From: a virus
DNA length: 34,966 bases
Virus record (IMG/VR): IMGVR_UViG_3300012936_000067
Location: 1 to 34,966 of that record
Strand: one strand, 5' to 3'
This document shows, piece after piece, positions 2,775-33,271 of the stretch. The notes under the pieces were generated by a model, which made no database searches, had not been told where the DNA came from, and saw only the letters and a program-made list of their open reading frames with translations. Numbering within the stretch: the stretch's first letter is position 1; every line of letters starts with the position of its first letter. Made by a program: the position numbers and the translations under genes.

Positions 2775-4459
2775 CAGAAATGCCGCTCCAAATGGGCCAG
2801 TATCTGTTCAGCGGCGTCCTTAAGGCGCTTCACATTCCTTGAGATCCGCTCCAACTTTTTCGAACGGGGAGAGAGAGCGAATACACTCCATCCTTTACTC
2901 CGGTCTTCCGTGAAGACGTATCCCATTTCTTTACTTTTATTTTTAAGGATGTAAGACACGCTTTCGTAGGGGGAGGATTCGGTTTCCTTTTCCCATTCCA
3001 TTCCTCGGGGCGGCTTGGGGAGGTCCTTATCTTCCTTATCCTCTTGCTTCTGCTTCTTTTTAATATCGTCGTAGATTCTCTCCAGAGGACCCTCGTCTAT
3101 AAGATCCCCGTAGACCTCGTCGACGTCGATATGGTCCTCGCCGATTTCTTCCCCATCTTCATCTACCTCGTCGTACCCCATGCCCCGCTGGAACATTTCC
3201 AAGCCTTCCGACCGGAGAATGTCCTCAGCCTCGTCTGTGTCAACGAAGTTGTCGTCGGGGAGTTCCTTGGGGTGCCAATACTCCTCAGGGTAGTCGAACT
3301 GCATGAAAACAGCGCGGGCCTGGAAAGGCTCGATCCCCGCTTTCTTCATACCCCCCATCTTTCGGAAAGTCTTGGCGAGGTTCAGGGCGCGGAGTAGGCT
3401 GGTCTCTTCATCGGTTCGGTCGTCCTTGGACTCCAGCTTCTTGATCTCGCCGTCGATCTTGGAAACCGGGATCTTCTCCCCTTCAGGGATACCGAAGTAT
3501 TTGTGGAGTCGACCTGGTCTCTTAACGGCCTTTTCTATCCAATCTTTCGCGACCTTCTTGGACAAAGAAGCGTAGCGTCCTCCGTAGTATGCGTCCACAG
3601 CATCAGAGTCGTCTTCGCTCTCCATGCCGAATTCTTCCCCTTCGAATGCCATCTTCTTGGGGTCGTAAGTCAACTCGGCCTTGCCATTGAAGCTTTTCCC
3701 CATAACCTCAAGATCGAGGAATCTAACAGAGGGTTCTCCGTCGTAGTCCACGTACCCCGAGTCAGAGAAACCGTTTTCATTCTCGATAAGTTTACCGAGG
3801 ACATACCCCGTATCCGGGACGCTAAATTCCCGGCTCATCTTCTTACCGAGGACGCTAAGGAAATCCTCAGAAGCAAAAATCCGTTTTACGAGTTCTTCGT
3901 ACTTCTTCTTCCACTTCTTTTCCAGACTCTTACCTTCTCTACTTTTTGTGAATTTGTCCGGACCGTACTCAAACTCGGAGGAGAGGGCACTGTTTTCCCA
4001 ACTCCCAAACGAGAAGTCCCGTAGGAAGTCCCCACTGATGTTCGCAACCAGTTTGGTTGGGACCAGCACATCGGTAAATTCGAAACCTATAGCAGGGCCA
4101 GACACCTCAGCGAACCAAACCGGCACGTCATTCGGGTCTATGTCGGTGACGACGTCGCTGAAGAAGAAATTGAGATTGTCTATATCACTGTTGGCAGACG
4201 TCCGGGGTGAAGTCAAATCCAACAGGTTGTCGCCGTCTTCGTCAACGTACAGATGTTCATACTTCTCTATTTCTCTGTGTGCTTCCTCGTAGAATTTGAG
4301 GAGCATGTTGTAAATCTTCTTGGAGGCGAACTTGGTCGTTCCGGACCGGGGAAGAAGACTGAGTCCTGACAGTACAGCCCTCCTCCCCTTATCCCCTGCG
4401 GGAAGGGAAGAAGCGAGGCGGATAAGGCTCTTACGATCAGACGCAGTGAGGTTATTCAT
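2774..4459 (-). CDS. Large acidic protein with shared N-terminal leader
   Basis: 561 residues from the ATG at 4459 (GAGGA 8 bases upstream); an in-frame TTG at 4474 has no good ribosome site. Residues 1-33 (MNNLTASDRKSLIRLASSLP...) match the N-termini of the products of 20365-20703 and 21851-22435, which are otherwise unrelated. Near residues 306-327 is KDWIEKAVKRPGRLHKYFG followed by EGEKIP, then an ALNLAKTF segment at about 359; I know this W-I-x-K-A-x-K-x-P-G-x-L signature from uncharacterised phage proteins. Residues 400-480 are very rich in Asp and Glu, while the C-terminal 50 are basic and helical. Function unknown. The leader and gene context make an internal virion protein plausible. 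Confidence 0.7.
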   Translation of the reverse strand: MNNLTASDRKSLIRLASSLPAGDKGRRAVLSGLSLLPRSGTTKFASKKIYNMLLKFYEEAHREIEKYEHLYVDEDGDNLLDLTSPRTSANSDIDNLNFFFSDVVTDIDPNDVPVWFAEVSGPAIGFEFTDVLVPTKLVANISGDFLRDFSFGSWENSALSSEFEYGPDKFTKSREGKSLEKKWKKKYEELVKRIFASEDFLSVLGKKMSREFSVPDTGYVLGKLIENENGFSDSGYVDYDGEPSVRFLDLEVMGKSFNGKAELTYDPKKMAFEGEEFGMESEDDSDAVDAYYGGRYASLSKKVAKDWIEKAVKRPGRLHKYFGIPEGEKIPVSKIDGEIKKLESKDDRTDEETSLLRALNLAKTFRKMGGMKKAGIEPFQARAVFMQFDYPEEYWHPKELPDDNFVDTDEAEDILRSEGLEMFQRGMGYDEVDEDGEEIGEDHIDVDEVYGDLIDEGPLERIYDDIKKKQKQEDKEDKDLPKPPRGMEWEKETESSPYESVSYILKNKSKEMGYVFTEDRSKGWSVFALSPRSKKLERISRNVKRLKDAAEQILAHLERHF

Positions 4460-4466
4460 TGATTTC

Positions 4467-4493
4467 GTCCTCAAAAGTTATACAACCGAGGAC
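4467..4493 (-). promoter_or_regulatory. Hairpin covering the ribosome binding site
   Basis: Read on the minus strand, GTCCTC (4493-4488) pairs with GAGGAC (4472-4467) across a 15-base loop holding GTATAACT. The 3' arm is the ribosome binding site of the gene starting at 4459, so the fold would hide it. A stronger hairpin sits at the same place before the second leader gene (22438-22476). Confidence 0.4.
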
Positions 4494-4508
4494 ATAAAGG
4501 ACCTAACG
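4493..4508 (-). promoter_or_regulatory. Promoter-like element CGTTAGGTCCTTTATG
   Basis: On the minus strand this reads CGTTAGGTCCTTTATG, followed by CGGTTGTATAACT and then the start of the 4459 gene. The same arrangement, with the same 27-base phase between CTAACG and AGTTAT (plus-strand view), precedes the genes starting at 20703 and 22435. Related elements are at 9449-9466, 9876-9893, 9900-9917 and 19035-19052. It lies in the gap after the stop of the 4513 gene. No consensus sigma-70 -35 box is seen. Confidence 0.5.
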
Positions 4509-4512
4509 AAAT

Positions 4513-4995
4513 CTAAAAGTCGTACACAGTGTCGGTGAGGTCAAAAACCTCACTTCCTTTCGTCCCCTTGTACCCCACACGACCAACCAGGAAGCCCCCG
4601 TGCAAAGGGTTCCACCCCCTGCCCAGAAGCTCGTTTGAATAGGAAGGAGGGGCACCATTTGTAGCCACGGTGATATGGGGTATGCTTTTGGTGCTCCTGA
4701 TCCCTTGAGGCTGAACGACTATAGCTTGGCCTTTTTCATCCTCAGACCATCCAATAATTTTGAGCTTAATAGGAGAGCCCATGGGGAGGCGCTTTATATC
4801 CCCAACGTCTGGCTTGAATTTGATGGTCATATGGTGGGAGAACGTTTTGGGGTGAAGGGGTGTCCCAACATTGTTTTCCCACCACCGCAAAAGGTCTTTG
4901 GGGTCATCCAGGAAAACAGCCGAGTATATAGCTTTTTCCGGCTTCTTGGAAGAAGTCATAACTCTCCTAATGGCCTGTCTCTTGGGGTCTTCCAT
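4513..4995 (-). CDS. 2H phosphoesterase superfamily protein
   Basis: 160 residues. Two H-x-T motifs, FSHHMTIKF near residue 55 and IPHITVAT near residue 107, are the paired catalytic signatures of the 2H phosphoesterases. These cleave or form 2',5' and 2',3'-cyclic phosphodiester bonds; examples are 2'-5' RNA ligase-like enzymes, tRNA-ligase cyclic phosphodiesterases and the phage anti-CBASS nuclease Acb1. Length fits a single-domain member. The ATG at 4995 follows AGGTTGG. I cannot tell RNA repair from cyclic-oligonucleotide degradation; sequence around the motifs resembles the RNA-repair type rather than T4 Acb1. The gene stands alone between short gaps, with a possible promoter (TTAACTTATAGG) just upstream. 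Confidence 0.7.
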   Translation of the reverse strand: MEDPKRQAIRRVMTSSKKPEKAIYSAVFLDDPKDLLRWWENNVGTPLHPKTFSHHMTIKFKPDVGDIKRLPMGSPIKLKIIGWSEDEKGQAIVVQPQGIRSTKSIPHITVATNGAPPSYSNELLGRGWNPLHGGFLVGRVGYKGTKGSEVFDLTDTVYDF

Positions 4996-5024
4996 ACTAC
5001 CAACCTATAAGTTAAAATGAACCC

Positions 5025-5381
5025 TTACCGAATGCGAGGCCCTGAACCTACAGTCACCACTTCTACGAAAGGCAGACTACGGATCGCCTTCAAAGCGTCT
5101 TTCCTCTGTTCAAGAGTTATGGGGAGGTCAAGGGTGACTTGAACAGGGGTCGTTCGACGGATGAAGGGAATAGACTTGGTGGCTTTTGCTGCAGCAGACT
5201 GAATCTTCTGGAGGTAAGGGTCCCCTCCAGGAAGATTCATGGTGACCAACAGCCGAACATAATGGGGCTCCCGCTCGGTTTTGGGGATGTTGTCAAACCT
5301 CATTTTCTTGATTCGAGAAACCGCTACGTGGTGGCGCATAGCGACCTTGATTGGGAGAGGGATATCCATCCCTACCACCAC
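5025..5381 (-). CDS. Hypothetical protein
   Basis: 118 residues from GTG at 5381, overlapping the end of the upstream endolysin-type gene by 10 bases; an ATG at 5369, two bases after that stop, would give 114 residues. Strands and helices alternate, the protein is basic (RHHVAVSRIKKMRF), and the C-terminal half (TPVQVTLDLPITLEQRKDAL) looks like a small alpha/beta fold. No catalytic motif or family recognised. Tight coupling to the lysis/tail gene suggests a late or virion role. Confidence 0.6.
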   Translation of the reverse strand: MVVGMDIPLPIKVAMRHHVAVSRIKKMRFDNIPKTEREPHYVRLLVTMNLPGGDPYLQKIQSAAAKATKSIPFIRRTTPVQVTLDLPITLEQRKDALKAIRSLPFVEVVTVGSGPRIR

Positions 5382-6196
5382 TTGTTCATCAGAGTGTAAG
5401 AAAAGGTCTTGCGGCCCGTCTTGTCCTGCTGCTGGTGAGCCAGCTCCATCATCTTAGCGAAGCCGTCTGCCGAGGCGTGAACCTGGCACCCTGCGCTCCA
5501 CTTACCAACGACTGTAGAGGTCTGACCTTCAGTCCTGGTGGCAGCGTGCAGGTTGATTCCGAAGTATCCCGTGGTGATGGTAACAGGGTCGAGGTCCAGT
5601 TTGTCATCCTTGCTGGTATCCCGATAAACTTTGACTTCACCGGCCCTCTGGCACAGGGCTTCGTATTTTCCAGCGTGGAGGTCGATGGTCCAGGTGTCGA
5701 GGTATTGACCAGCCACAAGGATGGCGCACCCCATGGAGTTCATGGGGTGCTCAAGGTAATAAGCCCCCGGATCAGTGGTTCCCGGCCAGTAGAAGACCTC
5801 CCAAAGACCATCATCGTTGACGTAGGCACAGCCCAGCATATCGTCGAAGGCGTCGGCCTTACGTTCTGAGGACCGGACTCCGAACAGGAAAAGACGCCAG
5901 GGGTCCCCCCAAGTCTCGTATCCCAAGCTCTGGGCCTGAGCTATAACGGGAGGAAGGGGAGAAGGAGCGGCAATACCCACGTCATCGGAATTCTCCGCGA
6001 GTAGCTTACCCCAGGTGGCGTTACCCACAATGCCGTCAGCCACCAGACCATTAGCAGCTTGGAACCTCTTGACTTTCGACTCTGTACCGGAACCAAAGAT
6101 CCCGTCGGCCTCGCAAGGGTACCCCTTCTTGGTGAGGCTATCCTGGCACAGTACCACATCGCTTCCGCGAGATCCCTTTCTAATTGTTGATGGCAT
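5372..6196 (-). CDS. Peptidoglycan-binding protein with L,D-transpeptidase-like C-terminus (endolysin-type)
   Basis: 274 residues. Residues 7-68 form a PG_binding_1 domain, with two DG(I)xG repeats (EADGIFGSGTE, VADGIVGNATW) and a conserved RFQAANGL helix. The C-terminal half contains FGINLHAATRTEG followed by WSAGCQVHAS, resembling the His and S-x-G-C catalytic signatures of YkuD/L,D-transpeptidase-fold enzymes. No signal peptide is visible, so release would need a holin or it may be virion-borne. It is 13 bases downstream of a tail-type gene, with GGGAGA as ribosome site. In phages such proteins act on the cell wall at lysis or DNA entry; which applies here is not shown. The catalytic domain assignment is less certain than the binding domain. 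Confidence 0.75.
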   Translation of the reverse strand: MPSTIRKGSRGSDVVLCQDSLTKKGYPCEADGIFGSGTESKVKRFQAANGLVADGIVGNATWGKLLAENSDDVGIAAPSPLPPVIAQAQSLGYETWGDPWRLFLFGVRSSERKADAFDDMLGCAYVNDDGLWEVFYWPGTTDPGAYYLEHPMNSMGCAILVAGQYLDTWTIDLHAGKYEALCQRAGEVKVYRDTSKDDKLDLDPVTITTGYFGINLHAATRTEGQTSTVVGKWSAGCQVHASADGFAKMMELAHQQQDKTGRKTFSYTLMNKWW

Positions 6197-6209
6197 GGTT
6201 GTTCTCCCG

Positions 6210-7439
6210 TTATTTGATCAGTTCGAAGTTTTTGTTTCTGCCTGAGTACCATGGGTCTTGTATGGTCATCAAGCCGAGGTTGTCAGTAACCCTGAGGTTA
6301 GAGGGGGTTCCAGAAGCGGCTATCTCGGCATCAGTCATACCGGCCACTTCTTCAAGCTGTTGTTGGGTGTTGGTGTTGACCCGAGAAACTTTGCGCCCAG
6401 TAGGCACTTGTATAGACCAGTCAGTCATTATGGAAATGGAAATAGAAGAGGTATAATAGTAGTCATCGCCGTTTTCGTCGTAGACCTCTTCGGCTTCCCC
6501 TCCAGCACTGGCCTCAGTGAGTTCTATCCCCTCTCTGGAGAACCTCTCCCTGGCTTCAGTGTAAATGAACATCAGAGTTCTATCGGTTATTTCCCCCTGG
6601 GCGTACAGGTCCCTGGCCATTATGTCGAATTCCAGGTTCATTTCCCATTTCCCACCGAACTCGTTAGCGACTTCGTCCCTTCTTTCCCCCACCACAATGG
6701 CCATTATGTCGCCATCATAAGCCCTCCTACCAAAGGCAATAACCACCCCTGGTATGACGTTATCCACAGCCCCATTTTCGGGAAGGGGTATGGGGCCTAT
6801 GGAAGTTCCAACATGGCGGTAGTCCACTGACAAGTAAGTACCAGACAACAATGGGCTCTCCCGAGTTATCCTGCCTGTGGCGGGGTCGGCTGTGTAGTTT
6901 ATGTTATTCTCGTATAGGATGTTGCCTGGCATTTCGTAAACCCTGAGACTGCCAGGATGGAAGGAGCCAGCGCTAACTTCGTATAGGAGAGGACTAAGCA
7001 TAGTGGCTCGTTCGTCTATAACTTCAAGAAGTGGGTCCACATAGAATACGAGCCTCTCAGAGGGAACTCCTCTGACCTCTATGACTTCCTCCCTAACTTC
7101 TATATAGTATATCCCAGGGGGAGAGGGAAACACCCCTCCGTTATTTCTGATGGCCAACCCGTTTTCCCTTACCCACTCTATGCTGGTGCCATTTTGACCG
7201 TGGACTTTGGTCAGGTAACAGTAAGACACTACTGTTCCTTGAAAGTGGTCAGCAGAGAATTGAAATGGGTTAGCAGAGCCGCCTTTTATGACTATGGCTT
7301 GCTGAGGTCTCTCTTGAAAAGAGAACCTCCCTTGGATGTTAGGAGCCAAAGAGTCCTTATATTGAGGGTCCTTAGACCAGAAGTACCTGACTTCTTGGAT
7401 GACTCTCCGTTTTATGGACTCTGTTAAGTTGGCAAACAA
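6210..7439 (-). CDS. Putative phage tail/neck structural protein
   Basis: 409 residues. The start is a TTG at 7439 with GAGGAG 6 bases upstream; the nearby ATG is out of frame. The protein is beta-rich with an N-terminal helix (SIKRRVIQEVRYFW). It contains long segments typical of virion proteins, such as KVHGQNGTSIEWVRE, and a central block (VVIAFGRRAYDGDIMAIVVG). I do not recognise a named family, but composition, length and position between tail tube and cell-wall genes fit a tail or connector component. A TATAAT sequence on the minus strand about 35 bases upstream of the TTG may be a promoter. Confidence 0.6.
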   Translation of the reverse strand: MFANLTESIKRRVIQEVRYFWSKDPQYKDSLAPNIQGRFSFQERPQQAIVIKGGSANPFQFSADHFQGTVVSYCYLTKVHGQNGTSIEWVRENGLAIRNNGGVFPSPPGIYYIEVREEVIEVRGVPSERLVFYVDPLLEVIDERATMLSPLLYEVSAGSFHPGSLRVYEMPGNILYENNINYTADPATGRITRESPLLSGTYLSVDYRHVGTSIGPIPLPENGAVDNVIPGVVIAFGRRAYDGDIMAIVVGERRDEVANEFGGKWEMNLEFDIMARDLYAQGEITDRTLMFIYTEARERFSREGIELTEASAGGEAEEVYDENGDDYYYTSSISISIMTDWSIQVPTGRKVSRVNTNTQQQLEEVAGMTDAEIAASGTPSNLRVTDNLGLMTIQDPWYSGRNKNFELIK

Positions 7440-20364: not shown

Positions 20365-20703
20365 TCAGCGGACCTGTGCTGAGATTACAACCCTGATAGG
20401 ATAGGGTTCCCCAACTTCAGGAAACACCTCCACCTTCATAGTTCCCTTGGGACCATCCCAGTTTATGTCTTTCACCACCAAGACTTCCCCGTCACTGGTA
20501 ACCCATTCACCTCGACCCCCCATGAGATTGTTCTCAAGAGTTGCCAAAGTGCCAGAAAGTATCTCCGTAGCAAGCCTTCCCTTGTCTGGACTGCCCGCCT
20601 TCTTGAGGCCCGACAAAATAGCTTGTCGCTCGGGGCTTCCCTTCTCAAGGGTTGCAGCGAGCTTGATCAGTGATTTGCGGTCTGCAGCGGTGAGTGACTT
20701 CAT
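20365..20703 (-). CDS. Small protein with shared N-terminal leader
   Basis: 112 residues. Residues 1-33 (MKSLTAADRKSLIKLAATLE...ERQAILSGL) match the leaders of the 2774-4459 and 21851-22435 products. The remaining 75 residues (GEWVTSDGEVLVVKDINW and VFPEVGEPYPIRVVIS) look like a small beta domain with no recognised family. It lies between the IMP dehydrogenase gene and the 19798 gene, with the promoter-like element at 20735-20751 in front. Confidence 0.75.
   Translation of the reverse strand: MKSLTAADRKSLIKLAATLEKGSPERQAILSGLKKAGSPDKGRLATEILSGTLATLENNLMGGRGEWVTSDGEVLVVKDINWDGPKGTMKVEVFPEVGEPYPIRVVISAQVR
20672..20703 (-). repeat. Leader-coding repeat, copy 1
   Basis: The first 32 coding bases are nearly identical to 22404-22435, including a 17-base exact block (GATTTGCGGTCTGCAGC on the plus strand). 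The third leader gene (2774-4459) keeps the amino acids but much less of the DNA. Confidence 0.85.
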
Positions 20704-20756: not shown

Positions 20757-21809
20757 TCAGTCTACTTGTTCAACACTGTGAGGACGGCTCTCTACGATCC
20801 CGCTACTGGTTATACGGACAAACTCGCAGTTGCCTACCATGGTAGAGAGGTTGGGGTGTCCGGTGTAACCCATGGCCGAACGCAAACCACCGACGAGCTG
20901 ATAAAGTATATCCCGAACGGAGCCCTTATAGGGGACGCGAGACTTGATGCCTTCGGCCACGAGCTTCTTAGTGTTGTCCTGGAAGTACCTGTCAGAGGAC
21001 CCGGCCTTCATGGCGTCTATGGAGCCCATACCCCGGTATGCTTTATACCTCTTGCCCCCGTGCTCAAACACTTCACCGGGTGACTCGTCGGTACCAGACA
21101 GGAGGGAGCCCACCATGACCACGGTGGCTCCGACGCCTATTGCCTTGGCTATGTCTCCGGAAACTTTGATACCACCGTCTGCTACTATATCGACGTCGTT
21201 GTTGAAGCAGAAGTCAAAAGCCTCGTCCACAGCAGAAAGCTGAGGGAACCCCACTCCAGACACGACCCTGGTGGTGCAGATGGAGCCCGGACCAATTCCG
21301 ACCTTGAGGATGTTGGCACCCGCCTTCGCGACCGCTTCCGCGCCCTCCCGTGTGGCCACGGATCCAGCCAGGATGTTCATGCCGGGGAAAGCCTTTCTGG
21401 CCAAAGAAACGGCACGGAGAACGCCTTCTGAGTGCCCATGCGCTGTATCCACACAGAGGAGGTCGACACCAGCTTCCACAAGGGCGTGGGCTCGGTCCAG
21501 GCCGGATTCCCCGATCCCCACTGCGGCACCAACCAACAACCCTTTGGATTTGACCTCAGCGACCTGATAAGTTTGGTCCTCGACAGACAGGTTCTTGTGG
21601 ATGACCCCCAGCCCCCCTTCCTCAGCAATAGCTATAGCCATGGCAGACTCGGTGACCGTGTCCATAGCAGAGGACAAGATAGGGATTCTGAGGTCCAGAT
21701 TCCCAAGACGCACCGAGGTGTCCACCTCGTTGGGCAGACACCTCGAATGGGCCGGGACGAGAAGAACGTCGTCGTATGTCAGAGCGGGGGTGTTGGACCG
21801 AAGCTTCAT
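20757..21809 (-). CDS. guaB: IMP dehydrogenase without CBS domains
   Basis: 350 residues, a complete IMPDH/GMPR TIM barrel. Substrate Cys178 is in [11 protein letters not shown], the phosphate-binding part in [12 protein letters not shown], and the flap in YRGMGS. Arg274-Tyr275 in SSDRYF, the catalytic pair of dehydrogenases, favours IMP dehydrogenase over GMP reductase, as do the YRGMGS loop and [10 protein letters not shown]. Bacterial GuaB has about 490 residues because of two CBS domains after the third strand; these are absent, so nucleotide feedback through CBS would be lost. It converts IMP to XMP and would raise guanylate. Next to PurZ, this suggests supply of dGMP for 2-aminoadenine. 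The ribosome site is GAGGTACCCACA. Confidence 0.9.
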
Positions 21810-21850: not shown

Positions 21851-22435
21851 CTACCAGTCTATTTCGTCTTCGTCCTCGTATTCGTCTTCAAGCTTGCTGA
21901 TCAACTTGGACACAGCCACAGCGTCGACAGCCTTACCTTTGACGAGTCTCCACAAGTCTCCCCAAGTGGCTGTGGTGTCTTCCCACCTCCAGCCGCCTCC
22001 ATCCTCGTAGCCCTCCTGTGCCTCGTACAGAGCATCCTTGGTTCTGACAACAGCAACACCCTGTGACTTCAGAGCCTCTTCAACTTCTTTTCTGGCAGAG
22101 CCACTGAGAAGGGGAAGGATAGACCCTATCAGGCCGAACCCTGCTGGCTGACCGTACTCTTCCTGTTCTTTCTCCGTATAACGGGTTGGGGAAGCTTCCT
22201 CCCGGATTTCAATGTAAGCTCTGAACCTGGAAGACCCCTTGAGGACCTGTTTCACTTCGCCAACTGCGTCCAGTATTTCCTTGTGGGTGCGGGGGTCCAA
22301 ACCCTCAAGAACGACCTTCTTGGCTGCAACTTTGCTGAGTCCAGCCAAGATAGCGCGTCGCGACTTATCTCCCTTCGGGAGAGAAGACGCGAGTCTAACC
22401 AGAGATTTGCGGTCTGCAGCAGTGAGGGACTTCAT
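21851..22435 (-). CDS. Acidic-tailed protein with shared N-terminal leader
   Basis: 194 residues. Residues 1-33 (MKSLTAADRKSLVRLASSLP...SRRAILAGL) are the shared leader. The middle is mixed (a helix LDPRTHKEILDAVGEVKQVL, a strand RFRAYIEIREE, and LIGSILPLLSG). The C-terminus is strongly acidic (EDEYEDEDEIDW). No family recognised. A 15-bp hairpin covers its ribosome site. Located between the dUTPase fusion and IMP dehydrogenase genes, but the leader suggests a link to the other leader proteins rather than to nucleotide metabolism. Confidence 0.7.
   Translation of the reverse strand: MKSLTAADRKSLVRLASSLPKGDKSRRAILAGLSKVAAKKVVLEGLDPRTHKEILDAVGEVKQVLKGSSRFRAYIEIREEASPTRYTEKEQEEYGQPAGFGLIGSILPLLSGSARKEVEEALKSQGVAVVRTKDALYEAQEGYEDGGGWRWEDTTATWGDLWRLVKGKAVDAVAVSKLISKLEDEYEDEDEIDW
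22404..22435 (-). repeat. Leader-coding repeat, copy 2
   Basis: Pairs with 20672-20703; same start codon position and nearly the same 32 bases. Confidence 0.85.
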
Positions 22436-22499: not shown

Positions 22500-23228
22500 T
22501 CAGGTTCCTGAGGAACCAAACCCCTTGGATCCACGATCCCCGTACCGCTCAGCGGCAGCGTGAACGTCTTCCATCGAGCCGTCCATGACCTTGAGAGCCG
22601 GGATGGGGATAGGAATGGCCTGCACGACCCGAGAACCCTTGGGGAGGGTGACGGGCTGGTCGGTGGGGTTGTGGACCATGGCGAACAGTTCACCGGAGTA
22701 CCCTGCGTCGATGACGCCGGGGATGACCATCAGCTTGTGCTTCGACCACGTGCTGCTGCGCCCCACAAGGAACAACCATGTTCCGGGGGGTGGGACCATG
22801 CGGGTACCACTGGGAACGTTGGAGTGGGTGTGGGGAGGAACCACAACGTCTTCGCTGGTGTACACATCCCACCCAGCATCGGTTTCGTGGGCCTTTTCGA
22901 ATTCACCATGAGTGACGAGGGGGTTGCCAATCGAGGGACCAGGACCAGCCCCCCGATTGGTGTCACCCATGAACAACGCGATGGCGGCGTAGTTGATGGT
23001 GTCGAGAACGTCGTCGCGTACAGCTTCAAAGTCCTCTTCACCAGTCTCCAGCCAGCGTCTGATGCGAACACCCTTGTCGTGGATCATGCGACCCAGGACA
23101 CCGTGCACCCCCTGGTCATCAAGGTTGGAGGTGCCACGAAGCTGAGCCTTCTCGGTCATGACCCCGAAGGCTTCATCGATTCGGTCCTTGACTCCTTCAA
23201 GGAACTGGCGGGTGTTTTCATCAGACAT
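22500..23228 (-). CDS. MazG/Nmad1-like domain fused to trimeric dUTPase
   Basis: 242 residues. Residues 110-242 carry all five dUTPase motifs: DAGWDV (117-122), GRSS (156-159), GVIDAGYSGEL (171-181, catalytic Asp174), GSRVVQAI (198-205) and RGSKGFGSSG (232-241). dUTPase turns dUTP to dUMP and PPi. Residues 1-90 are all helical with HGVLGRMIHDKGVRIRRW and RDDVLDTINYAAIALF, resembling DUF1599/Nmad1, a MazG-like pyrophosphohydrolase relative tied to modified-nucleotide systems. The fusion is unusual. It is 17 bases downstream of purZ with GGAG as ribosome site. MazZ, which makes dGMP from dGTP in known Z phages, is a MazG-type enzyme; the N-terminal domain may do the same here, by inference. Confidence 0.85.
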   Translation of the reverse strand: MSDENTRQFLEGVKDRIDEAFGVMTEKAQLRGTSNLDDQGVHGVLGRMIHDKGVRIRRWLETGEEDFEAVRDDVLDTINYAAIALFMGDTNRGAGPGPSIGNPLVTHGEFEKAHETDAGWDVYTSEDVVVPPHTHSNVPSGTRMVPPPGTWLFLVGRSSTWSKHKLMVIPGVIDAGYSGELFAMVHNPTDQPVTLPKGSRVVQAIPIPIPALKVMDGSMEDVHAAAERYGDRGSKGFGSSGT

Positions 23229-23245: not shown

Positions 23246-24325
23246 CTAAAAGAGGATGGTTTCGCTGGCCTTCGGCCCAATGCTGATACCGGCGACAGTA
23301 ATCCCGTTTACCCCATTGATCTCGTCAACGATAGCCTGGGTCTCAGGGGCGAGAGTGCCGTCCTCGTTGACAGGCTTTCCACCATCGAGGTAATCGCAGA
23401 AGGTCAGGAGAACCTTGCCCGAACCGTTGCGAGCCACGGAACGCTTGAACTCCTTCATGTTGAAGCGACCGATGCGACGGACCTTCTTGGTAACGGTGGT
23501 GCGTTCGATTACCTCACGACCTGCGGACTCGGAGACCTCTTCCCAGGTCATTTCGCCGGGGAGAGGTCCAGAGGGACCAGCGACGCGGATCGGCATGGTG
23601 CGGGTGGCGTACCACACGACCACGGGGCGGTCACCGGGGGGAACCCCAGCCTCGGACATCATGGAGGCAACACCAATGTCAGCACTGGTGGTCTTCGGCC
23701 ACGGTCCGTGGAGAAGCGAGAGGCCAGCCCCCTGAGTTCCCTCCAGCAGAATGCGGTCGCCCTGCTGGATGATCTCGACGGTGTCGGCCTCAATCCAGCG
23801 GCCCTTCAGCCCACGGGAAGCGACAGTGCCAGTGGAAAGTTCTCCATGCCAACCGAGGCCACGAGCGATGTGGACAGCGCGAGCGATGCCGACACCCTTG
23901 CCGGTGGAGCCGATCTTGGCGTGAGCGTCACCCTTGGTGCCACCCTCGAAATCGCGGTGGTCCTGGGCGATCACAGCGGCGTTGGAATCGACGTAGAGAC
24001 GGTTGGTGATGTAGCCCTCACCGTATTCAGCCTCGATGCTGTCGATCTCCTTGTTGATCTGGTCGGGGTCGAACAGAGCGCCCGCACCGATGACCAGCTT
24101 GGTGGTGGGATCCTCCCAAGCACACGGAATGGACTGCATGACCCACGCCTTGCCGTCCTTGGTGTAGAAGGTGTGCCCAGCGTTGGGACCACCAGTCCGG
24201 ACGGCGACGTCGAACCCGTTCCCGTCGTCCATGTTCTTGATAAGGCAGTCTACGACCTTGCCCTTGCCTTCACTGCCGAACTGTGCGCCAATGACTGCTA
24301 CAACTTCTCTCTTTCTACCGTTCAT
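23246..24325 (-). CDS. purZ: PurZ-type 2-aminoadenylosuccinate synthetase
   Basis: 359 residues from ATG at 24325 (AGGA 8 bases upstream); an ATG at 24332 sits directly on that site. The adenylosuccinate synthetase fold is clear: P-loop-like GAQFGSEGKGKVVD, GGPNAGHTFYTKDG with His51, and EGTQGAGLSLLHGPWP. In PurA the first motif is G-D-E-G-K-G-K and its Asp is the catalytic base; here it is Ser18. Asp-to-Ser at this site and a short length (PurA has about 430 residues) are the marks of phage PurZ, which condenses dGMP with aspartate to give the precursor of dZMP (2-aminoadenine). Codons are strongly biased, suggesting high expression. Host PurB would complete the step. Confidence 0.85.
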   Translation of the reverse strand: MNGRKREVVAVIGAQFGSEGKGKVVDCLIKNMDDGNGFDVAVRTGGPNAGHTFYTKDGKAWVMQSIPCAWEDPTTKLVIGAGALFDPDQINKEIDSIEAEYGEGYITNRLYVDSNAAVIAQDHRDFEGGTKGDAHAKIGSTGKGVGIARAVHIARGLGWHGELSTGTVASRGLKGRWIEADTVEIIQQGDRILLEGTQGAGLSLLHGPWPKTTSADIGVASMMSEAGVPPGDRPVVVWYATRTMPIRVAGPSGPLPGEMTWEEVSESAGREVIERTTVTKKVRRIGRFNMKEFKRSVARNGSGKVLLTFCDYLDGGKPVNEDGTLAPETQAIVDEINGVNGITVAGISIGPKASETILF

Positions 24326-24335
24326 GAGTTCCATC

Positions 24336-25506: not shown

Positions 25507-26189
25507 CCCTTACCTAACTTCCTAAAAGTCGCTCGGCCCCCGGAATTCTTGATCCTATAGGCCGTATCCGCCGCTTCAACCAACGCAGGGTTGTGGGTCA
25601 CACTGAGTATGTCCATCCCCAACCGGTCGCATAGCAACGATAGGAAAGTACCCACGCGAGGCACATAGTGTTCAGACACAGCAGCAAGAGATTCGTCCAG
25701 AAGAAGGAGTGGTCGCATGTTTCTGCGGTTCACAACCACTATCCGGAGAAGAACGGATTCCACAGTTGCGATCGACCCCCCACAGGAGTCGATGCAGGAA
25801 CCCTCAGTCACGGTTCCATCAGGGAGCTTCTGAACAGTAGAAAGCTCAACTGAAACTTTCCCCCGTTTGACCGAAATATCGGAAGAAACGGACAGATCGA
25901 GGTCATCGAACACAGCTTGAAGACCTTCCGTCAAGAGGCTCTCGACCGCTCTAACGTTGCTGATGACTTCTTTGTCTATCAGCACTCGGAACAGGTCCGA
26001 AACTCTCGCCAGGATCTCAGACTCCCCCTCCAGCTTTATGACTTTGGCCTCTGTGGTGGCCAAAGTGGAGGCACAGGAACTCCGAAGGGTGTCCAATTGC
26101 AGGAACCTTGATTTGACTTCTTCAAGTCTCAAAGTGGCATCCGACAGCGAAGGAGTAGGAATTGGATTCATCGGATTCAGGGTCGTCAT
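25503..26189 (-). CDS. C-terminal half of SbcC/Rad50-like ATPase
   Basis: 228 residues. It contains the ABC signature region (SCIDSCGGSIATVESVLLR, residues 131-148), Walker B (PLLLLDES, 160-167, with Asp165 and Glu166) and the H-loop (SVTHNP, His199), but no Walker A. A short coiled coil occupies residues 20-60. This is the C-terminal lobe of a Rad50/SbcC/gp46 ATPase. The N-terminal lobe is the separate gene at 30203-31408. Together with the Mre11 homologue they would form a complex that trims DNA ends. The start overlaps the clamp gene by 68 bases; ATG at 26189 or 26171, neither with a strong ribosome site. Confidence 0.8.
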   Translation of the reverse strand: MTTLNPMNPIPTPSLSDATLRLEEVKSRFLQLDTLRSSCASTLATTEAKVIKLEGESEILARVSDLFRVLIDKEVISNVRAVESLLTEGLQAVFDDLDLSVSSDISVKRGKVSVELSTVQKLPDGTVTEGSCIDSCGGSIATVESVLLRIVVVNRRNMRPLLLLDESLAAVSEHYVPRVGTFLSLLCDRLGMDILSVTHNPALVEAADTAYRIKNSGGRATFRKLGKG

Positions 26190-27288
26190 GGTACATGGTC
26201 ACATACCCCTTCTGGCCCGCCTTGTAGACCCCCACCCTCAACTCGGAAATGCTGAAAAGCCCGAATAGGTCGATGAAATAGTGGTAGTCGATGAAGAACT
26301 CAAGATTCTCCCCACCCTCCTCTGCCTGAGTGTGGATCATGGGGTAAGAGTCCTTACCCCCCGCCGCAGACGGCATGGAAAGGGTGACCGACTCCCCCTG
26401 GATAGAGAAGTGGGCCGTGTGATGACCTCTGGGCGCTGAAGCCGTAAGAACGGACAGAGCGGTCTGGAATTCTTCGCTGTGCAGGTTGATGTAAGCATGG
26501 CACTTCTGGTCCTTCCCAGGAGTGAGAACTTTCGCGGGAAGAAGAGAAAGTCTGGCAACACCAATGTAGGTTCCATCAGGTCTGGCGAAAAAGTCGAACT
26601 CCGAACCTCCTTCTTCCTTGGGCCTCTTAGATTCCTTGATGTAGACAGGGTTATCCACGGTGTCTTTATCGTCTATGAACTTCTGGACAGTGGGGATATC
26701 CTTGAAGGGAACCCTGATGTTGATACCCTCGTAGGGCAATCCGACGTTCACCACCCCTCTCTGGTCTGTAGAAGCGATGGAATCCCCCCAGGCCACCAAC
26801 TGGCAGTTTTCTGGCTTCAGTGTGTCTTCCTGGGAAACCATGGTCTTACCAGCTGCGAGGGCTCTTGAGAGCACAACTGGGTCTACCTTACAGCAGTCTT
26901 CTGCCTTATCGTAGAGAGAGTCCCAGCCCCTGAACCCGTTAGGGTCGAGGCTTCGGAACTTGACCTTGCTCCTGCCACACTTAGCGGTAACCTCACCGTC
27001 CTTGTGGGACAAAGTTATGACGTTATTTCCACTGTTGATGGTGTTGACCCACTTGATAAGACGCCAAGCCTCAACGGTGAACCTCGGGTCCTCTCCCTCT
27101 TCCACCTCTGTGGTGCAGACCACCGGACAAACTGAGAAAGTCCTGGTGGACTTGCTCAGGATTTCGGCAGTTTCATCCGGAAGTACCCGGAACAAAAAGT
27201 TGGAAGACATTCCCCCTTTGTTGTCGATACAAAGGTTGGCTATGCGAAGAGCGGAAAGAAGGTAATCAGGGGCGACTGTGATTTTCAT
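26122..27288 (-). CDS. DnaN-like sliding clamp
   Basis: 388 residues, the length of bacterial beta clamps. The pattern fits three repeats of the clamp fold: FTVEAWRLIKWVNTINS then VITLSHKDGEVTAKCGRSKVKFRSL; a central domain with LSRALAAGKTMVSQED; and a last part with FIDYHYFIDLFGLFSISELRVGVYK. It would tether the phage DNA polymerase, which is not in this window. The ATG follows GAGGCATAAAA and lies 2 bases past the coiled-coil gene. Similarity is by fold pattern rather than strong motifs. Confidence 0.75.
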   Translation of the reverse strand: MKITVAPDYLLSALRIANLCIDNKGGMSSNFLFRVLPDETAEILSKSTRTFSVCPVVCTTEVEEGEDPRFTVEAWRLIKWVNTINSGNNVITLSHKDGEVTAKCGRSKVKFRSLDPNGFRGWDSLYDKAEDCCKVDPVVLSRALAAGKTMVSQEDTLKPENCQLVAWGDSIASTDQRGVVNVGLPYEGINIRVPFKDIPTVQKFIDDKDTVDNPVYIKESKRPKEEGGSEFDFFARPDGTYIGVARLSLLPAKVLTPGKDQKCHAYINLHSEEFQTALSVLTASAPRGHHTAHFSIQGESVTLSMPSAAGGKDSYPMIHTQAEEGGENLEFFIDYHYFIDLFGLFSISELRVGVYKAGQKGYVTMYHDDPESDESNSYSFAVGCHFET

Positions 27289-28581: not shown

Positions 28582-29559
28582 TTACACTGTACCCATTTGC
28601 TCCAGATAAGAGAGGGCGCGTTCTCTAACCTCGTTAGGGACTTCCCCCATACTCGCTACAGTCTCAGAAAGGGAGATTCCTCCTTCTGTAGGCTGCAGAG
28701 ACTCGCGAATGGAGTTGACGAACGAGTCCATTTCTACCTGTCTCTTCACCTGGCGCTCCCGACCTTCCAAGTCGAACACTTCTTCTGCGGGACGGACGTT
28801 GAGCGGTACAACCTCGACTTTGACGCCCTTCTCAGTGCACCGGAGCACAGCTGCAGAAGGAATCCGGTCGAGATTATCCTGTGAGAGCGACCCGCGCGTC
28901 AGACTTCCTATGTTCACAAACTGCTTGCCGCCGATCTCCTCGACCCCTTGGTTCTTGTGCCAGTGGCCGAACAGAAACACGTCGGGAGCGGTGTCCAATA
29001 GGTCCGCGTATTTGATGATATCCTCACCCTCAAACATAGTTCCGCCTCTGTGGGAGGCAAGAACGTGAGCCACGCAGATAAGGATATCCTCGTCACCCCT
29101 CTCTATGGAGGTGAACCGCTCCATATCGTAGGACGTGCCGTGATAAGGGATGCCGACCACGCGGACCTTGACCCCGTGGAACTCCTCAAACACGGCCTCA
29201 TGCTCGTCGTAGAGCCGCTTGAACACGCCTGTGCTGAACAGGACGCCCAACGGCTGCTGGGGCAGGAAGGAGTAGTCGCCGTAAACCGCGTCGTGGTTCC
29301 CCGGAGTGCAGTAGACTGGGCACGGGTAGGTGCTGTGGTGTTCTGCCGTCCGGTGAACGAGAGCATGACTGTTCCGACCGGGCGACTTGACGTGGAAATA
29401 ATCGCCGCCGTCTATGATAGCAGCAGCGTTGACCTCTCGGGCGAGGTCACGAACCTGCCCCAGCTTGTCGAACACAGCGTCCGCCCAGTTATCGGTGCGG
29501 GAGGACGGTGAACGGTCAGAAAGGTGAACGTCGGTTCTCCAGACGAGATTGATGCTCAC
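28582..29559 (-). CDS. Mre11/SbcD-like nuclease
   Basis: 325 residues from GTG at 29559 with AGGAGG 6 bases upstream; the TTG at 29577 overlaps that site. Metallophosphoesterase motifs are complete: Asp10/His12 (TDVHLSD), Asp53 (IDGGDYF), GNHD at 87-90, a conserved His (CVAHVLASHR) and GHWH near 205. In T4 (gp47) and bacteria (SbcD) this nuclease works with the SMC-like ATPase gp46/SbcC. Both halves of such an ATPase are encoded on either side of this gene. Confidence 0.9.
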   Translation of the reverse strand: MSINLVWRTDVHLSDRSPSSRTDNWADAVFDKLGQVRDLAREVNAAAIIDGGDYFHVKSPGRNSHALVHRTAEHHSTYPCPVYCTPGNHDAVYGDYSFLPQQPLGVLFSTGVFKRLYDEHEAVFEEFHGVKVRVVGIPYHGTSYDMERFTSIERGDEDILICVAHVLASHRGGTMFEGEDIIKYADLLDTAPDVFLFGHWHKNQGVEEIGGKQFVNIGSLTRGSLSQDNLDRIPSAAVLRCTEKGVKVEVVPLNVRPAEEVFDLEGRERQVKRQVEMDSFVNSIRESLQPTEGGISLSETVASMGEVPNEVRERALSYLEQMGTV

Positions 29560-29573
29560 AGATCGCCTCCTGA

Positions 29574-29597
29574 CCAATTAAGTTTATCCCCAATTGG
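29574..29597 (-). promoter_or_regulatory. Inverted repeat and possible promoter before the Mre11 gene
   Basis: CCAATT (29574-29579) and AATTGG (29592-29597) flank GGGGATAAACTT on the minus strand. GATAAACTT resembles the GATAACTTT found before leader genes. It lies 15 bases before the GTG. The 75-base gap also has a 6-bp hairpin at 29622-29639 over the stop of the previous gene. Confidence 0.3.
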
Positions 29598-30202: not shown

Positions 30203-31408
30203 CTAATTGGAGTGTATTGTGTTGCAGACGGGGCACACGCCCATATCCCCAAGGATGGAGGATACTTCGGATTCCGAGTCTTCGAACTCGGAAGAACAGA
30301 TAGCATAATCTTCTTCTAAAGTCTGAATTTCCTTCTGAAGGGACTCCAAGGATCCCAAGAATCCAGACACCAAAGCTACAGACTCACTGAGTCGTTCGAT
30401 ATCCCCAGAATCTGGGACATTCGCGTCACACCCCTCAAGGCTCGAAAGCAGAGACTCGGATTTCTCCAGCTTAGAAACGAAACCCCGCACAGTGGCAATT
30501 TTGTCTGACAGCTGAAGAAGGTCATCAGGGTCTGGCAGAGAAACGGACACGAATCCTTCGAATCGGTCCAAGTCCTTGGTGGAAGACTCCAATCTGGAGA
30601 CCATTCCAGTGACTTTCCCCACGGCTTTTCCAAGCCTCTGTACTCTGGTCGAGTCAGGGACAACACTTGGATCAAAACCAGAGTAAAGGTCATGGGAAGC
30701 TTTAGAGTCCTCGTATGAAGATCTAAGACCTTCCAGTCTGGAGATCTCGGACTCTTCGGATTTTATGACTTTGTCCATGGAAGAAAGGGCCTCTACCAAT
30801 CTCCCCACATCTTCAAGACCGTCGTACTTCGACAACTCTTCTGCCTGGTCCTGGGCGTCCTTCCTGCGGATCTTTAGCTCGGAGTCCACAGACCTTTTGT
30901 CCTTCTCCGAAGCCTTGAGTGCCGCCGTTAGCGACCCCACCCGCTCCACATCGGATAGAGCTTCTGCGGTGGCAGAACCGGGTCTGTTGACCAGGAACAG
31001 GGAACCGTCGAATTGGTCCGCAATCTGCGGCCAAATCCTGTCAGAAGCGGCCCTGACTTCTTTGACTCCCAGGTCCTCGATCTCTGGTGGAACGCCGCTT
31101 CCGACCCCAGCCAACTCTTTCCCGTTCAGCAGATACCTGTTGACGGTCTTGCCCTTCTGATTGGGCTTCTCCCAACCCTTTTCCCAGGTCACGGTCGTGC
31201 CGTCATCGAATATGAGGGTAACACTGAGATAAGCACAGCCGTGACGCACGAGAGCACCAGCAGGGGGGTTGGTGAAAACCCCCTTGATGGCTCTGATAGC
31301 AGCAGTTTTGCCACTATTGTTGGTTCCAGTGATGACCGTCAAGCCGTCCACAACCAAAGTTGCTTCTTCAATGGACTGGAAATTTTTGATCCTAACTTCA
31401 ACGGCCAC
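30203..31408 (-). CDS. N-terminal half of SbcC/Rad50-like ATPase, ending at zinc hook
   Basis: 401 residues from GTG at 31408 (GAGG upstream). The N-terminal lobe has Walker A GTNNSGKT (28-35) and a Q-loop-like region, then a coiled coil of about 200 residues. The last ten residues begin CPVC (392-395), the C-x-x-C zinc hook that joins two Rad50 arms. In normal SbcC the chain turns there and returns through a second coil to Walker B. Here it stops six residues later. The returning half is found only as the gene at 25503-26189 with a much shorter coil. No frameshift or leftover frame is seen after the stop; an established gene starts there. Confidence 0.85.
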   Translation of the reverse strand: MAVEVRIKNFQSIEEATLVVDGLTVITGTNNSGKTAAIRAIKGVFTNPPAGALVRHGCAYLSVTLIFDDGTTVTWEKGWEKPNQKGKTVNRYLLNGKELAGVGSGVPPEIEDLGVKEVRAASDRIWPQIADQFDGSLFLVNRPGSATAEALSDVERVGSLTAALKASEKDKRSVDSELKIRRKDAQDQAEELSKYDGLEDVGRLVEALSSMDKVIKSEESEISRLEGLRSSYEDSKASHDLYSGFDPSVVPDSTRVQRLGKAVGKVTGMVSRLESSTKDLDRFEGFVSVSLPDPDDLLQLSDKIATVRGFVSKLEKSESLLSSLEGCDANVPDSGDIERLSESVALVSGFLGSLESLQKEIQTLEEDYAICSSEFEDSESEVSSILGDMGVCPVCNTIHSN

Positions 31409-31416
31409 CGTGCACC

Positions 31417-32613
31417 TCAGATATCCAACCCGTCAAGTTCTTCCTCTTCGGAATCCTCTTCGAATCCCTCCAAAGACTTACCTGCTCCGAGCAGCGGAAT
31501 TACCCTCTGGTGGAGTGCTTCACGGTGCTCCTCATTGTCCACGAAGTGTTTCCGGAACTTCTCCACACCCAGAACCTTCAGGGGTCCATCGGGGCAATCC
31601 TCCCAGGACAACCACGAACCGGAAGCCTTGATGATTCCATGCGCCTTGGCGATTTCGATCATGGTGCGGATGTTGTCGATACCTTCACCCCACCGGATGT
31701 AGAACAACTCCTGTCGACCCTGCGACTTGGAGAGCTTGTTCTTGATGGCGGTGGCCCGGATGATACCACCGATCACGCGCTCGTCGGCACGATGGGTGAG
31801 GAGGTTATGTTCCTTGGACTTCTCGTTCTTGATGCGGGTCAGTTCCAGACGAACACTGGAGTAGAATTTCCAAGCGTTACCACCCTGAGGCTTGGTCTGC
31901 TTGCCCATGGCGTTCATGGTGGCCCGAACCTGAGAGATACCGATGACCGAAGTCCCGGTCTGCGCAATCAAGTTCTTGAGGTTGGGAAGTTCCTGGGACC
32001 AGATTGACTGGAGTTCCGCGATCTTCCCCTGTTCTGCCACGTCCATAGCATCGCGCTCCGCGATACGGCGCGGGACGGCAGAACCGACAGAGTCGAACAC
32101 AATCAGGTCAACACCAGCAGCCGCATACGCCATGGCATACTTGATTCCGTCTTCCAGAGTTTCTGGCTGGAGAAGCTCAAACTTCGACTCCTCGTTGATC
32201 GGCACCCCGAGAGCAGCTGCGTAATCCGGGACAATGTCGTTCTCCCAGTCGACGTAGACTGCCGTACCACCCTGGCGACAAACCTCAGCCACAGCCTCCA
32301 AGCAAAGAGTGGTCTTTCCTGCGGACTCGTGGCCCCAAACCTGAGCGACACGGCCCCGAGGGAATCCGGGACAGGGAGCAACCCCGAACATGTTGGGCTC
32401 TCCACCAATCAGGAAGTCAATGGTGATCGAACCACTGCTGATGTGGGGAAGGCTCTGCTTCAGTACGTCGTCGTTGAGAGCCACCCGAATGTTGTCGTAC
32501 TCCTTGCCCTTCTTCTTCCTGAGGTGCTCCCTCATTTTGGTAATGGGGTCATCCTGCATATCGCGGAATCTGGTTCCCTTATTGGTTCCTTTGCTTTTGC
32601 TCGCTGTTGCCAT
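31417..32613 (-). CDS. RecA-type recombinase
   Basis: 398 residues from ATG at 32613 (AGGAA 7 bases upstream); the frame is open further up but overlaps the RuvC end. The RecA core is clear: GHESAGKT (94-101), TAVYVDWEND, LIVFDSVGSAVPRR (Walker B), and the L2-like region with MNAMGKQTKPQGGNAWKFYSS. The C-terminus is acidic, EEDSEEEELDGLDI, as in RecA/UvsX. It forms filaments on ssDNA for strand exchange. Strong codon bias suggests high expression. Lies between RuvC and SbcC genes. Confidence 0.93.
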   Translation of the reverse strand: MATASKSKGTNKGTRFRDMQDDPITKMREHLRKKKGKEYDNIRVALNDDVLKQSLPHISSGSITIDFLIGGEPNMFGVAPCPGFPRGRVAQVWGHESAGKTTLCLEAVAEVCRQGGTAVYVDWENDIVPDYAAALGVPINEESKFELLQPETLEDGIKYAMAYAAAGVDLIVFDSVGSAVPRRIAERDAMDVAEQGKIAELQSIWSQELPNLKNLIAQTGTSVIGISQVRATMNAMGKQTKPQGGNAWKFYSSVRLELTRIKNEKSKEHNLLTHRADERVIGGIIRATAIKNKLSKSQGRQELFYIRWGEGIDNIRTMIEIAKAHGIIKASGSWLSWEDCPDGPLKVLGVEKFRKHFVDNEEHREALHQRVIPLLGAGKSLEGFEEDSEEEELDGLDI

Positions 32614-32623
32614 TTGGTGTTTC

Positions 32624-33271
32624 CTATTGTAAGATGTTGGACCACAGAAAGAACCTGTCATTCTCGCGGTGAACAACACCCCGCTTGACAGTCTTGCCAG
32701 CTTTTTTGCCCCGCACGTAAGTGTGGACACGGTTGAAATACCGGTTTTCCGTCTTCGTCAAATCCCCCTCGGGGATTTTCCCGTCGAAGAACCCCCAGAA
32801 CCTGGCGGAGAGGACAGCTATAAGATAGGCATCCGCTTCGTTATGGTTCATCCTGGCAGCACAATCCTTCTGTGCCGCTTCCACCATATCAGCCTTGTCC
32901 ATGGGCCATTTTGGTGGTCGGACGATGGAATCCCTGGCGTGGGCCTTGACCTGGGGAGGGGACCAGAAAACCGTGTCCATACCCCTGGATTTGAGGGCCT
33001 CACAGGAGTAAAGAAAGAGCCCGTACATGCCAGAAGAGAACATGCTGTCAAACACGGGGAATTCAATCCCAACCCTGTCGGGTTTGTGTTCGTCCAAAAG
33101 ATCTTGTAGACTGGTGCGAAAAAAGCAGTACCTTTCCACAAATTCCACACTGGACTTAGTACGGAATCGCCCCCTGCTGACACACCTATCCCGGTGGCCA
33201 GAGGGGGCGGCGGTATCGAGTACTGCCCATCCGTAGTTAGTCAGGGATGGGTCAAGCCCCAATACTTTCAT
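32624..33271 (-). CDS. RuvC-like Holliday junction resolvase
   Basis: 215 residues. The RNase H-like core shows four acidic positions: LGLDPSLTNYGWAV (Asp7), VGIEFPVF (Glu), KADMVEAA (Asp) and NHNEADAYLIA (Asp). Family members cut four-way junctions, resolving recombination or replication branches before packaging. A basic C-terminal extension of about 50 residues (YVRGKKAGKTVKRG) goes beyond E. coli RuvC. ATG after GAGGCACTCG, 8 bases from the upstream stop. Confidence 0.88.
   Translation of the reverse strand: MKVLGLDPSLTNYGWAVLDTAAPSGHRDRCVSRGRFRTKSSVEFVERYCFFRTSLQDLLDEHKPDRVGIEFPVFDSMFSSGMYGLFLYSCEALKSRGMDTVFWSPPQVKAHARDSIVRPPKWPMDKADMVEAAQKDCAARMNHNEADAYLIAVLSARFWGFFDGKIPEGDLTKTENRYFNRVHTYVRGKKAGKTVKRGVVHRENDRFFLWSNILQ

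Follow-up and report, generated by a model that had tools for sequence, protein, structure and literature searches.

All phages in which 2-aminoadenine (Z) DNA has been described to date belong to the siphoviruses or podoviruses (PMC8599892), and the adenylosuccinate-synthetase-like enzymes to which the locus described here compares most closely form two subgroups: classic PurZ, known from cyanophage S-2L, vibriophages VP2/phiVC8 and Acinetobacter phage DMU1, and PurZ0, known from Arthrobacter phage Wayne, Streptomyces phage Keanu and Gordonia phage Archimedes, the PurZ0 of which has been solved as 7vf6 (PMC12884076). The partner gene dutZ is present in all PurZ0 genomes (98/98), whereas dmtZ is found in 85/98 and is lacking in 13/98; DutZ hydrolyses dATP and dGTP, yielding dAMP and dGMP (PMC12884076). 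Here, we analyse a stretch of viral DNA of 34,966 nucleotides (the window), which makes up an entire IMG/VR virus record and in which a PurZ-type synthetase and a DutZ fusion, judged from their sequences, very likely constitute a module for Z nucleotides that belongs to a third lineage of PurZ. By analogy with the known systems, the virus probably makes Z-DNA.

The synthetase and its predicted active site

The synthetase is encoded on the minus strand by an open reading frame of 362 aa (24334..23246), with an in-frame ATG three codons in (24325; 359 aa). The latter is the better start, because a 96%-identical relative starts there (MSGRKREVV) and AGGA lies shortly upstream. Comparison with this relative reveals 83 silent codon changes and 14 residue changes, and the gene is under purifying selection and no chance ORF. 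The product matches Pfam PF00709 (8.7e-45) and PHROG 1211 ('2-aminooxy adenylosuccinate synthetase'; 3.2e-65), and its best NCBIfam match is NF038379 (PurZ), with 211 bits, below the curated cut-off of 300. Rfam and promoter scans yielded no match.

The initial annotation had described an adenylosuccinate-synthetase homologue with the motif GAQFGSEGKGK, Ser in place of the catalytic Asp, a retained His and a short chain, all of which the sequence bears out: the Asp of the PurA motif (GDEGKGK) is absent, with Ser21 instead, and the GPNAGHT motif retains His54. The dGMP-pocket positions in S-2L are Ser23, Ser131 and Thr273, together with a loop inserted after V241; the corresponding Ser21, Ser143, Thr279 and SG loop insertion of the window enzyme are of the PurZ type, unlike PurA (PMC8342488). 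For instance, the short archaeal PurA of Pyrococcus horikoshii (5k7x) is similar in length, fold (TM about 0.8) and GTP-type Asp, but has Asp, Thr and Gly at these three positions and no loop insertion. Identical pocket residues are also carried by chromosomal Ser-type paralogues. PurZ0 enzymes (about 33–38% identity) share the Ser at the catalytic position, the Ser143/Thr279 type and the loop insertion, as well as an Asp in the donor base pocket and DutZ in the gene neighbourhood; the window enzyme nevertheless belongs to a sister clade, without DmtZ. Classic PurZ proteins (about 29–31% identity) share the Ser and the other dGMP-pocket residues, but differ at the donor-base position: S-2L and phiVC8 have Gln/Asn (ATP-type), whereas the window enzyme has Asp314, as do PurA and PurZ0. 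GTP is therefore the predicted donor, and the predicted reaction would convert dGMP, Asp and GTP to N6-succino-2-amino-dAMP. PurZ0 reportedly uses GTP. One sentence of PMC12884076 assigns the preferred donors, ATP and GTP, to the two subgroups in the reverse manner.

The AlphaFold model of the synthetase (pLDDT 86, pTM 0.88) matches 5k7x, 7vf6 and 6fko with TM of about 0.8, 5k7x being the top match, just ahead of 7vf6; as modelled, the fold does not tell the subgroups apart. By sequence, the nearest solved relative is 7vf6 (1.4e-44), followed by archaeal PurA (3e-37).

Phylogenetic position and the serine signature

Tree placement had been set beforehand as a test, and in the best tree the synthetase lies outside PurA, beside PurZ0. 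Three trees were constructed, one with FastTree (160 rows) and two with IQ-TREE (a quick one with 92 rows and a careful one with 46), and in all of them the synthetase falls into a clade of viral sequences and one MAG contig (L113), which also bears polymerase and Dut neighbours. This third clade (100/99 in the careful tree) is sister to PurZ0, outside the PurZ0 clade and distinct from classic PurZ; the node uniting it with PurZ0, along with two additional viral rows, is supported at 95/89, and PurA is separate (100/99). In AU tests on the 46-row set, joining the window enzyme with PurA (p=0.021) or with classic PurZ (p=0.026) was rejected; with the looser 92-row alignment, for which a better tree existed than the one reached by the unconstrained quick search, joining with PurA was not rejected (p=0.65). 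Given that the branch to the window synthetase is long (about 1.2), some doubt attaches to this otherwise good placement.

The substitution of Ser for Asp had been put forward as the mark of PurZ. The substitution is present, but we reject its diagnostic value because many chromosomal paralogues have it. We collected by profile scans the best 80 viral loci and the best 80 bacterial and archaeal genome loci with Ser-type homologues; among 159 loci, the motif exceptions are L188, with Gly, and L116, truncated before the motif. Of the genomes with a Ser-type homologue, 20 were tested; every one is cellular, and 17 encode a separate full-length PurA. Since bacterial and archaeal chromosomes thus hold Ser-type paralogues beside PurA, Ser alone is ruled out as proof of a Z phage.

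Some of these chromosomal paralogues reside in recurrent gene rows. Six loci (L125, L126, L139, L150, L174 and L192, at about 3000–7200 of each locus) encode an RNase-H-like protein, which in some cases carries a kinase-like AAA domain, then a Ser-type PurA and, in several of them, a dCTP-deaminase/dUTPase-like protein; L126 additionally contains an HD phosphohydrolase and an adenylate-kinase-like gene, and L139 a deoxynucleoside kinase. This row might represent an undescribed bacterial purine-nucleotide system. In a second chromosomal family (L163, L167 and L171, about 4400–6800), proteins of ~550 aa combine an N-terminal kinase-like P-loop domain with a Ser-type PurA domain, and the next gene encodes a DUF7002-type protein (identified in L171).

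The DutZ fusion and the gene neighbourhood

The 'nucleotide-cleaning fusion' noticed beside the synthetase is real. Located 18 bp downstream of the synthetase gene (22500..23228, minus strand), it consists of a short N-terminal domain (about residues 1–95) and a DutZ-type dUTPase domain (residues 96–242), which is predicted to clear dATP and dGTP and to supply dGMP. In a tree of 44 rows, built after the removal of five that were too long or too short, 30 rows comprising the dUTPase domain, the DutZ proteins of PurZ0 phages and Dut from third-clade loci are separated from 14 rows of ordinary phage and cellular dUTPases with 100/100 support; within the DutZ group, the window branch is long and its position tentative. 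The motif (G/A)RSS is common to the 30 rows, the window domain having GRSS, whereas 13 of the 14 others carry RSG. The 40 best matches of the domain among 651 phage records, about 16 of which were checked by name, come from actinophage groups carrying PurZ0. The domain thus resembles DutZ of phages Ghobes and Wayne in both clade and GRSS motif; in the known system, however, the fusion partner is DmtZ (PMC12884076), whereas in the window it is weakly similar to MazG and to nucleotide modification associated domain 1. Relatives of this N-terminal domain are restricted to near-identical phages and to a stand-alone homologue in L034, which directly follows DutZ and in turn shows weak similarity to nucleotide modification associated domain 1. 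Furthermore, the PurZ0 phages are actinophages of 39–83 kb, whereas the window lineage is a large phage.

Group assignments from the 160-row FastTree, with near-duplicates placed partly by similarity, show DutZ adjoining the synthetase in 16 of 23 third-clade loci (including two near-duplicate pairs), 40/41 PurZ0-clade loci and only 2/79 genome-record (mostly chromosomal) loci; for family A polymerase, the respective counts are 18/23, 11/41 and 0/79. Flanks were 5 kb for genome loci versus 10 kb for the others, but the contrast stands because the DutZ and polymerase matches lie within about 4 kb. Synteny with DutZ is thus a better test for Z phages than the Ser signature. Fifteen of 16 third-clade polymerases group together (SH-aLRT 94, with few non-Z controls), and DatZ is absent from the PurZ0-clade loci.

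DatZ and DpoZ had been expected elsewhere in the genome, but neither was found in the window or in its 158,946-bp relative, G001, which may be incomplete; PurZ0-type phages use DutZ in place of DatZ. Models of DatZ, MazZ, DmtZ and PurB matched nothing in either sequence; the missing DatZ and MazZ matches and the rejected joint tree position set the window apart from the classic PurZ systems. Polymerases of families A, B and C and PrimPol were likewise not found in the possibly incomplete G001 record, and phmmer searches with Wayne gp45, an S-2L PrimPol fragment and a DpoZ found no polymerase. Upstream of the synthetase, however, lies a homologue of a DNA polymerase processivity factor, or sliding clamp (26122..27288, minus strand; phrog_947, 7.5e-16), implying a clamp-using polymerase; both clamp and clamp-loader genes are present in the phage. 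None of the 27 contigs identified as relatives through their terminase or baseplate protein matches PF00709, and 11 of them encode a family A polymerase. The trait is therefore not ancestral to these contigs, and the module was probably acquired by this lineage.

G001 contains the same operon in the same order. Conserved beside the synthetase is an IMP dehydrogenase (GuaB) without CBS domains (20757..21809, minus strand), which, by its sequence, would convert IMP to XMP as the first step of guanine-nucleotide supply; PMC12884076 makes no mention of guaB or IMPDH. As further supply genes, G001 has those for GMP synthase (GuaA) and dCMP deaminase, along with a portion of a class II ribonucleotide reductase gene. 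Between DutZ and GuaB lies a small protein (21851..22435, minus strand), possibly outside the pathway, with a repeated N-terminal motif. This start of ~33 residues, LTAxDRKxLIRLASSLPKGDKxRRAILAGL, occurs on different proteins, at 4450 and 22426 (minus) of the window, with a similar one at 20365–20703 and six further places in G001, and resembles a shared targeting or packaging signal.

Elsewhere in the window, a calcineurin-like (Mre11-like) phosphoesterase (28582–29577) is adjacent to a Rad50-like AAA protein (30203–31408), followed by RecA (31417–32730) and an overlapping RuvC-like resolvase, recognized by eye (32624–33271). In G001, an intein-like insertion interrupts a DNA methylase gene (Hint, LAGLIDADG and intein-splicing matches) and, as judged by sequence, probably the clamp-loader gene too (L006:6194-8026; L010:9036-11119); the genome also encodes a glutamine-synthetase homologue and a TPR-sulfotransferase (L009:12477-13802; L010:17609-19006). 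Because the tail-sheath family PF04984 is missing from G001, Baseplate J is the one indication of a contractile tail. Among 50,697 known phage records, 217 matched, all with <60% identity (<=37% among the matches listed), so that no close isolate is known.

A putative route to Z-DNA and its alternatives

Homology, tree positions, pocket residues, gene order and conservation in the relative are what the sequences show directly; every catalytic step of the route below, and whether and how far Z enters virion DNA, are inferences. GuaB, with GuaA of the close relative, would drive IMP to GMP. Guanine deoxynucleotides would then form, and the DutZ domain would cut dGTP to dGMP while also removing competing dATP. 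The PurZ-type enzyme could join dGMP with aspartate, with GTP as donor, to give N6-succino-2-amino-dAMP, which host PurB and kinases would carry on to dZTP. Finally, a putative polymerase would use dZTP instead of dATP.

The enzyme might instead be an ordinary phage-borne PurA that boosts the AMP/dATP supply of the host and acquired its Ser by drift. The PurA-like Asp314, the narrow lead of archaeal PurA 5k7x over PurZ0 7vf6 in the fold search and the AU test with p=0.65 are in line with this reading. Yet the catalytic Asp is missing while the PurZ-type pocket residues are kept, the best tree places the enzyme outside PurA (100/99; AU p=0.021), and a role in boosting dATP is contradicted by a partner of the DutZ type, which destroys dATP; we thus regard an ordinary PurA as highly improbable. 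Nearly as improbable is a phage copy of a chromosomal Ser-type paralogue that operates in a bacterial nucleotide or defence-like pathway without Z-DNA. Such paralogues possess the same pocket residues, and their short forms occur in operons of nucleotide enzymes, including dCTP-deaminase-like and HD proteins, but the window enzyme groups with the viral PurZ forms, apart from the chromosomal ones, and the DutZ partner is nearly absent from chromosomal loci (2/79).

A variant of the Z-module explanation, and compatible with it, is that dZTP is made but Z takes the place of adenine only partially, or acts chiefly by depriving host replication of dATP. The failure to find a Z-selective polymerase in G001 and the 27 related contigs without PurZ, 11 of them with a family A polymerase, favour this variant, but the relatives are fragments, and the destruction of dATP allows S-2L to replace adenine completely with a PrimPol that is unselective (PMC8065100, PMC8342488). 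We consider this variant a minor possibility. Some replacement of adenine in the virion is likely, and complete replacement is plausible, being slightly more probable than not. Overall, the tree position outside PurA and the DutZ partner support the direction of the initial annotation, a Z phage, whereas its reasoning from Ser alone was too simple.

Tentatively, the locus may belong to a third, separately diversified Z-genome system, in which a large phage combines a PurZ lineage driven by GTP with GuaB/GuaA supply, a class II ribonucleotide reductase, DutZ in place of DatZ and a polymerase outside the known DpoZ types. The open literature searched yielded no account of Z-DNA in any larger phage. 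If the Z-module interpretation is correct, Z-DNA would extend past small siphoviruses and podoviruses, and there would be a third, previously undescribed PurZ lineage, neighboured in related contigs by a polymerase set of its own and represented here by a phage that seemingly produces its own guanine-nucleotide precursor.
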